Source: Paenibacillus alvei DSM 29 (GTDB lineage Bacteria; Bacillota; Bacilli; Paenibacillales; Paenibacillaceae). From it: 64,000 nucleotides of DNA. A program made the position numbers and the translations under genes. Where the stretch lies: the NCBI RefSeq assembly GCF_000293805.1, contig NZ_AMBZ01000002.1, positions 209,001 through 273,000 of the forward strand, given 5' to 3'. The notes under the pieces were generated by a model. The model was not told the origin of the DNA. It searched no databases and saw only the letters and a program-made list of their open reading frames with translations. Shown here piece by piece: positions 35,966-52,141 of this stretch (within the stretch, counting starts at the first letter, position 1; each line of letters begins with the position of its first letter).

Positions 35966-37088
35966 TTACACCTCCGAATCTAACGGCACATAATCTTTGC
36001 GCAGCGGGTGTCCAACCCAATCATCCGGCATCATGATGCGGCGCAAGTCGGGATGTCCCGGAAAATCAATGCCCAGCAAATCGTATACTTCACGCTCATT
36101 CCAGTCCGCTGTTGGCCATATTGGCGTTACCGATGCGATGGAAGGCGCCTCGCGATCTGTCTTAACACGAACAGCAACCTCTGCTCTCGTGTTCAAATTA
36201 ATGAGGTGATAGATGACTTCTAAATGTGTCTCCTGGTCGGTGCCGGATAAATTACGCAAATAGTCACATGACCAATCTCCGTGCTTACGAAGGAGATCGG
36301 CAGCCGCTAACCAATGTTCATTTTTACCGTTACCGTAGGCAAATGATCGTTCATCTCATTGATAAATGCTTCCTCAACCGCTTCTTCTGCGATTTCCGTC
36401 TTCAGCAAGGCAACGAGCTGATCAAGGACAGGCTGCTTGGGTGAAGGCTCTTTCGGCTTAGGCGGTTCTTCATCTGCCTTTACCCGAGGAGCGCGTGCAG
36501 GCCGTTCTGGTTTCTCAGCGGCATCACCAGCACCTTCTTCTCTCACGCGCGCTCGTGGTGGACGCGCTGCTGCAGGTTCTGCTCCTGTAGAAGCTTCTCC
36601 GCCGCCTTCTGCCGACTTCGCTCGCGCTGCTCGCGCCTCAGCAGCCGCCTGTATTCGTGCTGCCTTCTCTTCTTCCGTCAATGGCGCACGCTTCGGCTTC
36701 TCTGTTTCCGCTGTGACGGAGACCTCCTTCGTAGCGTCGGTATGGCCTTCGGTTTCAGCAGCCGCAGGAACGGGCTTCGATTCCAGTTGTATGTCTAGTT
36801 CCTTCTGGACTTCTTTTTCTCATCAGTCTTTTCAGTCTCCAGCTTCTGCTCTGGTGCTGTAGGATCAGGCTTCACACCCGAAGCAGCCTGATCTGGCGAT
36901 TGAGATTCTTGAATCTGCTCACTAGCCTGCTTTTCTAACTTTTCTTCAAATACAGAATCTTTTGCATCCGGGTTGGATTCATGGCCTGTTGCTGTACTCG
37001 AGATTGAGTCTGTATCCGACACTTGCTTCTCATGTTGTTCAGAGGGTAGTTCTCCTGCAGTCTTGTCCTTCTCTTGCTCCTCACTCAT
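35966..37088 (-). pseudogene. nuoC: NADH-quinone oxidoreductase subunit C with charged N-terminal extension, split by two missing bases
   Basis: Three frames cover one gene. The first starts with an ATG overlapping the nuoB stop (ATGA) and ends SRRN. The second carries an Ala/Arg/Glu-rich stretch and ends KMNIG; the third holds the NuoC core (WNEREVYDLLGIDFPGHPDL, GHPLRKDY). Adding one base to the five-T runs at 36814-36818 and at 36321-36325 restores 375 codons, giving KKEVQKELD and KNEHWLAAADLLR at the joints. The intact protein would have 374 residues, with roughly 190 of charged, low-complexity extension before the 30-kDa domain; such extensions occur in other Paenibacillus NuoC. As written no complete NuoC is made. 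Confidence 0.92.
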
Positions 37089-37603
37089 CGATTTGTCACC
37101 CGCTTTCCGGTTTTCGCCTCATAGCGGATCTTTTCTTGAAGCTTGTTGATTCCATAAATTAGTGCTGCAGGATTTGGCGGACAGCCCGGGATATAGACAT
37201 CCACCGGTACAATCTGATCCACACCCTTCACCACAGCATAAGACTTGACATATGGCCCTCCGGCAGTAGCGCAGGAACCCATCGCTATAACCCATTTCGG
37301 CTCCGGCATTTGATCGTAAAGTCTGCGAAGCAATGGTCCCATCTTCTTCGTAACGGTACCTGCTACGATCATTACGTCTGATTGACGGGGCGAAGTGCGA
37401 AAAATAACGCCGAAGCGATCCAGATCGTAATGGGAAGCCCCAGTGCCCATCATTTCGATTGCGCAGCAGGCAAGACCGAACGTAAGCGGCCACAATGAAT
37501 TGCTTCGGGCCCATGCCTTCAATTGTTCAAGCGTGCCAAAGAACACATTGCGTTCCAACTCTTGCCGTTCTTCCGGCGTAATTGATTCTAAAGTGAGTCC
37601 CAT
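37085..37603 (-). CDS. nuoB: NADH-quinone oxidoreductase subunit B (cluster N2)
   Basis: Holds the terminal 4Fe-4S cluster N2 that reduces quinone. 172 residues from the ATG behind GAAGGTG. Cluster cysteines are in [20 protein letters not shown] and IPGCPPNP. The start lies within the last codons of nuoA (16-base overlap) and the stop overlaps the nuoC ATG. Confidence 0.96.
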
Positions 37604-37959
37604 TGAAGCACCTTCTTTTTCCAGGCATAAATTAGTCCAACCAACAGCAATCCGACGAAAATTAACATTTCGACAAGTGCAAACAACCCTAGCTGATTGT
37701 ATGCAACCGCCCATGGGTACAAGAAAACGGTTTCGACATCAAAAATGACAAACATGAGTGCAAACAAATAGTACCGTACGTTGAATCGGACTTGTCCGAC
37801 ACCAACAGGCTCGTTACCGCTTTCATAAGTCGTTTGCTTCATGTCTGTCGGCTTCTTCGGCCTAAGCCATCTCCCTACCGTCAGTGCGACAACCGGCAAT
37901 AAAATACCGAGTGCAATAAAAATGGCCACAATGACGTAATTGTTGATGTACTGTTCCAA
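37588..37959 (-). CDS. nuoA: NADH-quinone oxidoreductase subunit A
   Basis: Three-helix membrane subunit, 123 residues, first gene of the operon. Motifs [13 protein letters not shown] and [14 protein letters not shown] are diagnostic. TTG start with GGAGGGGGATG upstream. The operon runs nuoABCDHIJKLMN without nuoEFG, so the electron donor is not a standard NADH module and may be ferredoxin-like or another dehydrogenase. Confidence 0.95.
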
Positions 37960-38031
37960 AGGTCATCCCCCTCCGCCGCAGCATCTGCCATTTTGCAAAA
38001 AAATAGAGAATTTTGTAATAAACCCGCCACA

Positions 38032-38040
38032 ATTATAACA
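38032..38040 (-). promoter_or_regulatory. Extended -10 promoter of the nuo operon
   Basis: Minus strand TGTTATAAT, an exact extended -10, about 73 bases upstream of the nuoA start. No good -35 at 17 bases, as is allowed for extended -10 promoters. Confidence 0.55.
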
Positions 38041-38221
38041 AAACCTACCAACCCCGTCTATGCAATTCCTGCCACCTTTTGTACATCTTTTCGAAAGTTG
38101 TTCGGTTTTGGTTATATACATATTCACATAAGGAGGACGATAGAAGATGACTAGTGAATGTTTTATGAACATCAGGAATGGATAAAAAGAGAGGAATATC
38201 GCACTGGAGGCCAAAAAAGGA

Positions 38222-38254
38222 CAAAAAAAGAGAGCTGCGATCCGGTCACAGCTC
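38222..38254 (-). terminator. Strong terminator upstream of nuoA
   Basis: Eight-pair stem GAGCTGTG/CGCAGCTC with a seven-base loop and TCTTTTTTT tail on the minus strand. It lies upstream of the nuo promoter, so it must end a separate transcript, best explained by the small RNA called at 38223-38423. Confidence 0.88.
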
Positions 38255-38423
38255 ACGGAGGATGAGGAAACTACCTACAATTAACCAACCTACTGAAAAT
38301 CAAAAGAACCAAGAAGAAGGATATTTCACTTGGTGTGAATGTTCAAGAAGTAGCCTTCCCGAACGTACACTTGATGAGGTTAACTTGATAACCTCCACAT
38401 GAGAATGATTATCAATATTAACT
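38223..38423 (-). ncRNA. Candidate Fur-regulated small RNA, about 200 nt
   Basis: Promoter, Fur box and terminator bracket about 200 transcribed bases with no credible ORF: the only ATG frame is six codons and has no Shine-Dalgarno. The 5' part folds as GAGGTTA-TCAAGT-TAACCTC. The 3' part has an unpaired pyrimidine-rich tract, TTTCCTCATCCTCC, just before the terminator, complementary to Shine-Dalgarno sequences. This architecture resembles B. subtilis FsrA, the Fur-controlled iron-sparing RNA, which is shorter. The gene next door is nuo, an iron-sulfur enzyme. Homology to FsrA is not shown; the call rests on layout. Confidence 0.6.
38400..38414. promoter_or_regulatory. Fur box
   Basis: TGAGAATGATTATCA agrees with the 7-1-7 Fur core TGATAATNATTATCA at all but one position. 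It covers about +9 to +23 of the minus-strand promoter at 38430-38458, a typical repression position. Confidence 0.8.
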
Positions 38424-38429
38424 GTCTTC

Positions 38430-38458
38430 ATTATAAACAGACCCCTTACATGCGTCAA
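38430..38458 (-). promoter_or_regulatory. Sigma-A promoter of the candidate small RNA
   Basis: Minus strand TTGACG (38453-38458), 17-base spacer, TATAAT (38430-38435). This is one of the closest matches to consensus in the window. Transcription would begin near 38423. Confidence 0.82.
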
Positions 38459-38519
38459 GCAATAAAATGATATTTTCTAAAATATTTTGTGGTTTCATTG
38501 CGATGTGTGAAAAATGGTT

Positions 38520-38549
38520 TTGAACTCTGCAGCCTGTTCAGTTTACAAT
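38520..38549 (+). promoter_or_regulatory. Sigma-A promoter candidate of the SDR gene
   Basis: Plus strand TTGAAC (38520-38525), 18-base spacer, TACAAT (38544-38549), about 40 bases before the ATG at 38590. Confidence 0.55.
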
Positions 38550-38589
38550 ATCCATACATCGGATCATACAACAAGGGGTTGAACGACTT

Positions 38590-39243
38590 ATGACACAACC
38601 GATGATTTGGATCGTCGGCGCCGGTTGCGGCATCGGACTTGGCATTGCCAAGTCATTTGGACAGCGTGGTTACCTTCCGATTCTCATTACACGAGATAAG
38701 GAGACGCTTGAACAAATGAAAGACATTCTGCACGACATGAATATCGAAGCGACTGGCACTGTCGCACTTACTAGCGACGAAACTGCCCTTCGTAAAGCAC
38801 TGACAGCACTAGAATCCGAACACGGTACACCTGAGGTCGTCATATATAACGCATCTGCTCATGCACCTGGGCTTCCATCTGAAGTGCAGCCTTCTGATAT
38901 GATTGAAGACTTCAAGGTGAATGTTGTCGGGGCGCTTACGACTGCTCAGTGCGTTCTCCCGGGCATGAAGACTCGAGGCACAGGCTCTTACCTACTGACT
39001 GGCGGGGGACAAGCACTGCACCCTACAGCAGCACTAGCATCGCTTGGCATTGGAAAGTCTGGTCTGCGCAGTCTAGCTTACAGCCTGCATGATGAGTTTA
39101 AGCAGTGCGGTTTATACGCCGGTACATTGACCGTCTGCGGCTTTGTTCAGCCTAATACCTCCTTTGACTCGCAATTGGTCGGTGAAGCCTTCTACAGCAT
39201 GCATACGAAGCGTTCTGAAGCTGAGGTTATGTTAAAGCCATAA
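38590..39243 (+). CDS. Short-chain dehydrogenase/reductase-like protein lacking the catalytic Tyr
   Basis: 217 residues, Rossmann fold. The N-terminal IVGAGCGIGLGIAKSFG is the dinucleotide-binding turn, and DFKVNVVGA carries the structural Asn. The usual NNAG is YNASA, the catalytic Ser strand reads SYLLTGGG, and the YxxxK motif reads LGIGK. The Lys is therefore kept but the Tyr is Leu, and classical oxidoreductase activity is doubtful. ATG with AAGGGG at 11 bases. It is the only clear plus-strand gene here, with its own promoter and a terminator shared with atpC. Substrate unknown; it could bind nucleotide without redox chemistry. Confidence 0.8.
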   Translation: MTQPMIWIVGAGCGIGLGIAKSFGQRGYLPILITRDKETLEQMKDILHDMNIEATGTVALTSDETALRKALTALESEHGTPEVVIYNASAHAPGLPSEVQPSDMIEDFKVNVVGALTTAQCVLPGMKTRGTGSYLLTGGGQALHPTAALASLGIGKSGLRSLAYSLHDEFKQCGLYAGTLTVCGFVQPNTSFDSQLVGEAFYSMHTKRSEAEVMLKP

Positions 39244-52022: not shown

Positions 52023-52141
52023 AAAAAAAGAGCATAGCACGGCTGTTCTTCCGCACACTGCTCTTCTGCCCAGGCGACCGGCCGTATTCTCCGATGCTCC
52101 ACCGTGGTTCCCCACTTCCGTCGCCAGTTACATCGGATCTG
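52023..52141 (-). promoter_or_regulatory. ZTP (pfl) riboswitch with terminator, upstream of rpiB-ywlG-glyA
   Basis: On the minus strand the aptamer (52067-52140) shows the conserved pfl features. Stem CCGATG/CATCGG encloses TAACTGGCGA, then GTGG-GGAA-CCAC and GGAGC; a downstream CGCCTGGGCA domain can form the pseudoknot with GGCG. An intrinsic terminator AAGAGCA ... TGCTCTT followed by TTTTTT (52023-52065) comes immediately after, as in known ZTP switches that antiterminate on ligand binding. The genes controlled would be rpiB, ywlG and glyA. Confidence 0.87.

Follow-up and report, generated by a model that had tools for sequence, protein, structure and literature searches.

The intergenic region that separates the ATP-synthase genes from those of complex I in Paenibacillus alvei DSM 29 raises the question of whether it harbours an iron-controlled small RNA of its own, and of which genes such an RNA could act upon. 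The stretch of DNA analysed here (the window; 64,000 nucleotides in total) bears on its minus strand a promoter, a Fur-type box (38414-38400) and an intrinsic terminator, which together mark the bounds of a predicted RNA (Table 1). Sequence comparison lends good support to the view that this locus would yield a non-coding transcript which ends at its own terminator and is independent of nuo, and that its Fur-type box is conserved, as is a tract able to pair with Shine-Dalgarno sequences. Equipped with its own promoter and terminator and devoid of a conserved ORF, it appears to be a stand-alone unit, as expected of its class. The reading that we favour, with a probability of about 0.68, is that of a Fur-repressed, trans-acting iron-sparing sRNA, the C-rich tract of which would block the ribosome-binding sites (RBSs) of iron-sulfur (Fe-S) mRNAs. 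Under this mechanism, when iron is present Fur would bind the box over the transcription start and keep the RNA gene off. When iron is scarce, the RNA would be made and would end at its own terminator, and the TTCCTCATCCTCC tract would pair with the RBSs of mRNAs for iron-sulfur enzymes, blocking their translation. The best-supported of the putative targets is porAB, with leuC and perhaps nuoA as further candidates; this last step is a prediction based on pairing energies and on their distribution among relatives.

Table 1. Features of the predicted small RNA locus and its neighbours (positions in the window)
Feature	Position	Strand	Remarks
Predicted small RNA	38223..38423	-	~201 nt; promoter-to-terminator span; conserved in 14/19 genus genomes
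Sigma-A-type promoter TTGACG-17-TATAAT	38430..38458	-	11/12 consensus bases
24-bp block AGTTAATATTGATAATCATTCTCA at the predicted RNA start	38400..38423	-	Contains the Fur 7-1-7 box and an overlapping weaker motif
Conserved CAGTAGGTTGGTT element, 5' of the C-rich tract	38283..38295	-	From alignments
Invariant C-rich tract TTCCTCATCCTCC, predicted site of target pairing	38257..38269	-	13 nt; identical in 14/14 loci
Intrinsic terminator	38223..38254	-	9-pair stem 38254-38232 and U-run to 38223
nuo promoter-like site TAGACG-17-TATAAT	38032..38060	-	TG before the second hexamer; separate from the sRNA promoter
nuoA (complex I), downstream neighbour	37588..37959	-	Weak candidate target; Pfam Oxidored_q4; synteny
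Short-chain dehydrogenase gene, upstream neighbour	38590..39243	+	Divergent; Pfam adh_short

The elements that the initial annotation had described were recovered at the locus, namely the promoter, the Fur box with a single departure from consensus, the tract able to pair with Shine-Dalgarno sequences and a promoter-like site of its own for nuo. The terminator and its U-run were present too, with a stem that scored nine pairs instead of the eight described. Folding of positions 38225-38424 was better than that of 200/200 dinucleotide shuffles (z -4.4). Between positions 37000 and 40000, seven promoter-like sites were counted vs 3.7 expected, and three terminator-like sites vs 3.2 expected. Single sites of this kind are not far above chance level, and conservation was therefore the decisive test. 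Concerning the rest of the neighbourhood, the nuoC region (37118-35966, minus strand) consists of three overlapping frames (37118-36795, 36819-36307 and 36355-35966), of which only the last was matched (Complex1_30kDa), and it includes a low-complexity Ala/Glu-rich part. Since the nuoC counterpart of genome G016 (L432:14915-16054) is a single ORF of 379 aa, a frameshift is likely, either in the gene or in the window assembly. Elsewhere in the window, a ZMP/ZTP riboswitch (RF01750, 57.7 bits) is located at 52061-52141 of the minus strand.

A blastn search with a 341-base query located the unit in 14 of 19 Paenibacillus genomes, among them the own one, and promoter, tract and terminator are retained in every one of these loci. 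All 14 promoters follow the pattern TTGAC[AG]-17/18-TATA[AC][TC], and the gap between promoter and conserved block measures six bases in 13 loci and two in G009. RNA length ranges from 92 to 201 nt, the region between box and tract being variable, while the CAGTAGGTTGGTT element shows minor changes in several loci and is most altered in G009. According to the predicted structures, the C-rich tract is more open than the RNA is on average in 11/14. The short-chain dehydrogenase gene adjoins the RNA in 8/14 loci (tblastn). In the terminator alignment 97.3% of the cells are paired, and five of the eight consensus pairs exhibit compensatory changes. Double-change cells number 17 vs a shuffled mean of 5.8 (0/500 shuffles as high), and slid versions of the fold fall apart; two of the five covariation measures did not rise above the shuffles (double-change pairs, 58/500; further pair types, 472/500). 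An alignment (A2) in which two terminators were misplaced was set aside.

The Fur 7-1-7 box (TGATAATcATTcTCA) bears one mismatch and lies at approximately +10 to +24 relative to the predicted RNA start. It is the sole site of the window with at most one mismatch, and eight such sites occur in the 1,244,000 own-genome bases scanned. A second, overlapping 7-1-7 motif with three mismatches begins 6 bp upstream of it. The main box has one mismatch in 13/14 loci and three in G009, and with this one exception the conservation of promoter, box and terminator, which had been proposed as a check, was borne out in the 14 Paenibacillus genomes with the unit. Four genomes (G001, G004, G005 and G014) possess a second box with two mismatches between -35 and -10, lending further support to the predicted Fur control. 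A Fur box at the promoter is a hallmark of Fur-repressed iron-sparing sRNAs, and it is from this box that we infer control of the RNA by Fur. The block also has a counterpart in G003, where a 23-bp stretch of it (96% identical) precedes a periplasmic-binding-protein gene (PF01497). Two more Fur-type boxes, a perfect one and another with a single mismatch, were noticed less than 2 kb apart in the own genome (G000:C5; L402, 15897 and 17672).

A covariance model of the 14 loci (R1) detected the same 14 genomes among 394 genomes of the family (E 1.1e-8 or better), and among 392 genomes of the order it recovered the ten of the 14 that were drawn. Of 375 family genomes from other genera, 16 matched with E values no higher than 0.1 (the best being 0.0018), and in another family five genomes matched at E 0.017 or worse. 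As homologs these matches were rejected, the 21 loci inspected being mostly Fur-type boxes near other genes; in one of them a Fur box precedes the gene for a FecCD transporter, and at L169 only the terminator end was matched. The exact TTCCTCATCCTCC tract occurs in none of these 21 loci, and copies with one or two mismatches (6/21) are either distant from the box or on the opposite strand. The unit was thus not found outside the genus in the R1 searches of family and order genomes, both of which were run with stricter filters that lose weak matches. In the five genus genomes without the RNA (G006, G007, G008, G015 and G018), atpC lies upstream of nuoA. Their ~3.4-kb loci contain no Fur box even when three mismatches are tolerated, and the tract is absent from them save for two 2-mismatch matches in one locus. 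In the tree of aconitase and SdhC, these five genomes group tightly with G009, which retains a short form of the RNA and a degraded box, and under midpoint rooting the absence reads as a loss in one clade, the internal branching of which is poorly supported. As a separate observation, the nuoA promoter region (TAGACG..GGTAGGTTTTGTTATAATTGT; 38060-38032, L171-L180) appears by eye strongly conserved in the genus and partly so in other genera of the family.

For the prediction of targets, gene starts were called with a simple script (ORFs of at least 120 aa and a Shine-Dalgarno score). Own-genome leaders from 1.24 of 6.8 Mb formed the background, 321 at first and then 930, and percentiles for the relatives refer to the first 321-leader own-genome set. 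Duplex energies ignore structure and competition. The C-rich tract is complementary to GGAGGATGAGG-type RBSs. A seed search for GGAGGATGA-N(1-11)-ATG yielded 45 matches in the own genome and 50 and 43 in two RNA-less genomes, with 5, 1 and 1 matches for the reversed-pattern control. Such similar counts show that the seed has no specificity by itself; RBSs of the GGAGGATGA type are frequent in Paenibacillus whether the RNA is present or absent. An exact 14-mer search in six genomes revealed no convincing RBS target, and in G017 an exact 14-nt complement of the tract other than the porAB match (G017:C1:88663; L391 ~8164) was rejected, as it lies antisense to a 266-aa open frame and is probably due to chance. 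Two own-genome loci, L341 (G000:C5:916558) and L364 (G000:C9:467019), have identical leaders and agree over the initial 130 residues of an ORF of 165 aa, which may be a duplicated phage-tail-type gene.

The strongest pairing among 43 distinct seed-selected own-genome sites precedes a 768-aa POR_N/PFOR_II/TPP protein. It is the second gene of a pyruvate:ferredoxin oxidoreductase pair (porAB), the first gene of which encodes POR and 4Fe-4S domains. With a 30-nt tract the pairing reaches -33.3 kcal/mol (z -4.8), a strength matched by 0/930 leaders and by 0/300 shuffled tracts; for the 15-nt core alone, one of the 930 leaders pairs as well. Picked from those 43 sites, porAB holds a partly selected own-genome rank, and the orthologs constitute the more independent test. 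They were found in 13/19 genomes. The eight orthologs in genomes with the sRNA pair at -33.3, -31.7, -31.0, -28.2, -26.6, -24.6, -21.1 and -19.7, vs -16.1 for all five orthologs in genomes without it; the pairing of G011 ranks as weak (27th percentile) and that of G013 as modest (7th). When 12 genes were compared between the two groups, por displayed the largest favourable shift (-9.7), while two other genes shifted by 8.3 and 8.7 in the opposite direction, one of them being the first por gene, for which pairing is better in the RNA-less genomes. The five sRNA-less genomes belong to one clade, so the porAB contrast counts as one event. At the cut-off used, porAB was not found in six of the 14 genomes that carry the sRNA, and other targets must therefore matter there. 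On these predictions porAB is the best candidate target and a better one than nuo.

The remaining iron-related leaders gave a mixed picture. Strong pairing was predicted for leuC (-26.4; 3/930 leaders as strong), and leuCD is a target of FsrA. Its percentiles run from the 1st to the 21st in the 13 RNA-bearing genomes (own included) and from the 2nd to the 4th in the five without, so that leuC is a candidate without specificity, pairing equally strongly where the RNA is absent. For the nuoA RBS, the own-genome pairing amounts to -23.8 kcal/mol, which places it in the top 2% (17/930 as strong, nuoA itself counted). Across genomes the own-genome tract gives means of -20.7 with the RNA (13 genomes) and -19.6 without it (5 genomes). 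These means hardly differ, and nuoA as a conserved target was not supported; the pairing with the nuo leader that the initial annotation had envisaged is hence strong in the own genome and unspecific across genomes, leaving nuo a weak candidate. Usual targets of Fur-repressed iron-sparing sRNAs are sdhC and acnA, and both were discarded here, as 418/930 and 775/930 leaders, respectively, pair as well. The proposed search of the tract against iron-gene leaders gave strong predicted pairing for porAB and leuC and turned out unremarkable for sdhC and acnA.

A Fur-controlled sRNA with a main job other than Fe-S sparing, e.g., an RNA sponge or a general tuner of GGAGGATGA-type genes, would account for several of these results: the tract fits a generic RBS type before dozens of genes, most of the strongest background leaders are by their sequence unlike iron genes, and neither sdhC nor acnA is a predicted target. 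We regard it nonetheless as unlikely, given that three Fe-S-linked leaders of the own genome rank in the top 2%, with porAB above all 930.

The location of the unit brings up the possibility of a Fur-controlled 5' leader of nuo, with the terminator serving as an attenuator that allows some read-through into nuo. Both lie on the same strand and, in line with the placement next to nuo originally pointed out, nuoA is downstream in all 14 loci, directly in 13 and after an insertion in G016. It is precisely this insertion that speaks against a leader. The homology of G016 to the window ends at 38223, where the U-run ends, and picks up again at 38173; a 2.66-kb segment with a single ORF of 693 aa separates the terminator from the nuo promoter region, both of which are intact, and an intact nuoA follows. 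A foreign gene established exactly behind the terminator implies that the RNA unit behaves as a module distinct from that of the nuo promoter, and because of it we lowered the already slim odds of a leader further, to very unlikely. Moreover, a terminator exists in every locus, the separate promoter-like site in between is kept upstream of nuoA in the five RNA-less genomes (by eye), the invariant 13-nt tract would be superfluous for a leader, and the alignment fold contains no competing antiterminator helix. The inserted segment itself corresponds to L432:17140-19801, and its ORF has a signal-peptide-like start.

Finally, a role as a small mRNA encoding a short peptide for iron stress is hardly credible and was rejected, for even if 13/14 RNAs hold ORFs of 12 to 40 codons (GTG/TTG starts allowed) and a 43-codon frame can be seen by eye in the own genome, no ORF is shared across the 14 loci, in accordance with the original claim of about 200 transcribed bases without a credible ORF; frames shift even between the close relatives G001 and G005, G012 is devoid of any ORF of at least 12 codons, and the ATG of the 43-codon frame, which overlaps the -10 box, precedes the predicted RNA start and is present in 3/14 loci.

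An iron-sparing sRNA being the preferred reading, its relation to known RNAs deserves attention. Searches against Rfam gave no match at the locus, either for the window at gathering score or for positions 38000-38700 at E up to 1, and none for 5/14 homologous loci. The FsrA model (RF02273) produced no match over the cut-off in 197 family genomes, own included, and 45 weak ones at E up to 1; in the control, 1/14 genomes exceeded the cut-off and B. subtilis was among the three matching. Judged by Rfam's model, then, the RNA does not belong to the FsrA family. FsrA of Bacillus subtilis is described as Fur-repressed, 84 nt long and endowed with C-rich regions (PMC12871923). The Paenibacillus RNA resembles it in its predicted Fur-type control, its Gram-positive host and its C-rich region, and differs from it in adjoining nuo, in length (92-201 nt) and, by prediction, in not having sdhC and aconitase among its targets. 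The view that it is much longer than FsrA holds for the own genome (~201 vs 84 nt); a relative carries a 92-nt form, and length is therefore not a defining trait. IsrR of Staphylococcus aureus is Fur-controlled, responds to iron limitation and has three C-rich regions capable of pairing with RBSs (PMC11257911). It is comparable, by description and not by sequence, in its Fur-type control (predicted here) and C-rich RBS pairing, and is distinguished by these three regions from the one invariant tract of the Paenibacillus RNA. RyhB of Escherichia coli is described as a Fur-regulated sRNA that prioritises iron use (PMC11257911, PMC12871923), and no Rfam family matches the Paenibacillus RNA. By prediction, the RNA works like FsrA and IsrR. 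Its initial assignment to the iron-sparing class is likely, and its iron-sparing role is a matter of prediction.

A literature search revealed no iron-sparing sRNA of Paenibacillus among the matches listed. The RNA-seq study of P. riograndensis mentions 27 intergenic small RNAs (PMC5670726). Its main text does not contain the word "nuo", and an earlier, unrecognised detection of the RNA, for instance in the supplements of that paper, is possible. A more specific scenario, in which a genus-restricted iron-sparing RNA, unrelated in sequence to FsrA, arose beside nuo with porAB as its chief target, and one clade lost the RNA together with the porAB site, can be offered as tentative, its odds being well below even. 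Overall, this is probably a new RNA of a known type, the iron-controlled sparing sRNA. The locus provides a concrete candidate for Paenibacillus, for which operator and pairing tract can be named and targets are ranked, and the related genomes without the RNA represent a natural control. If the favoured reading is true, it would mean that iron-sparing RNAs arise with the same logic of Fur box, C-rich tract and terminator, built from other sequence and directed at partly other targets.
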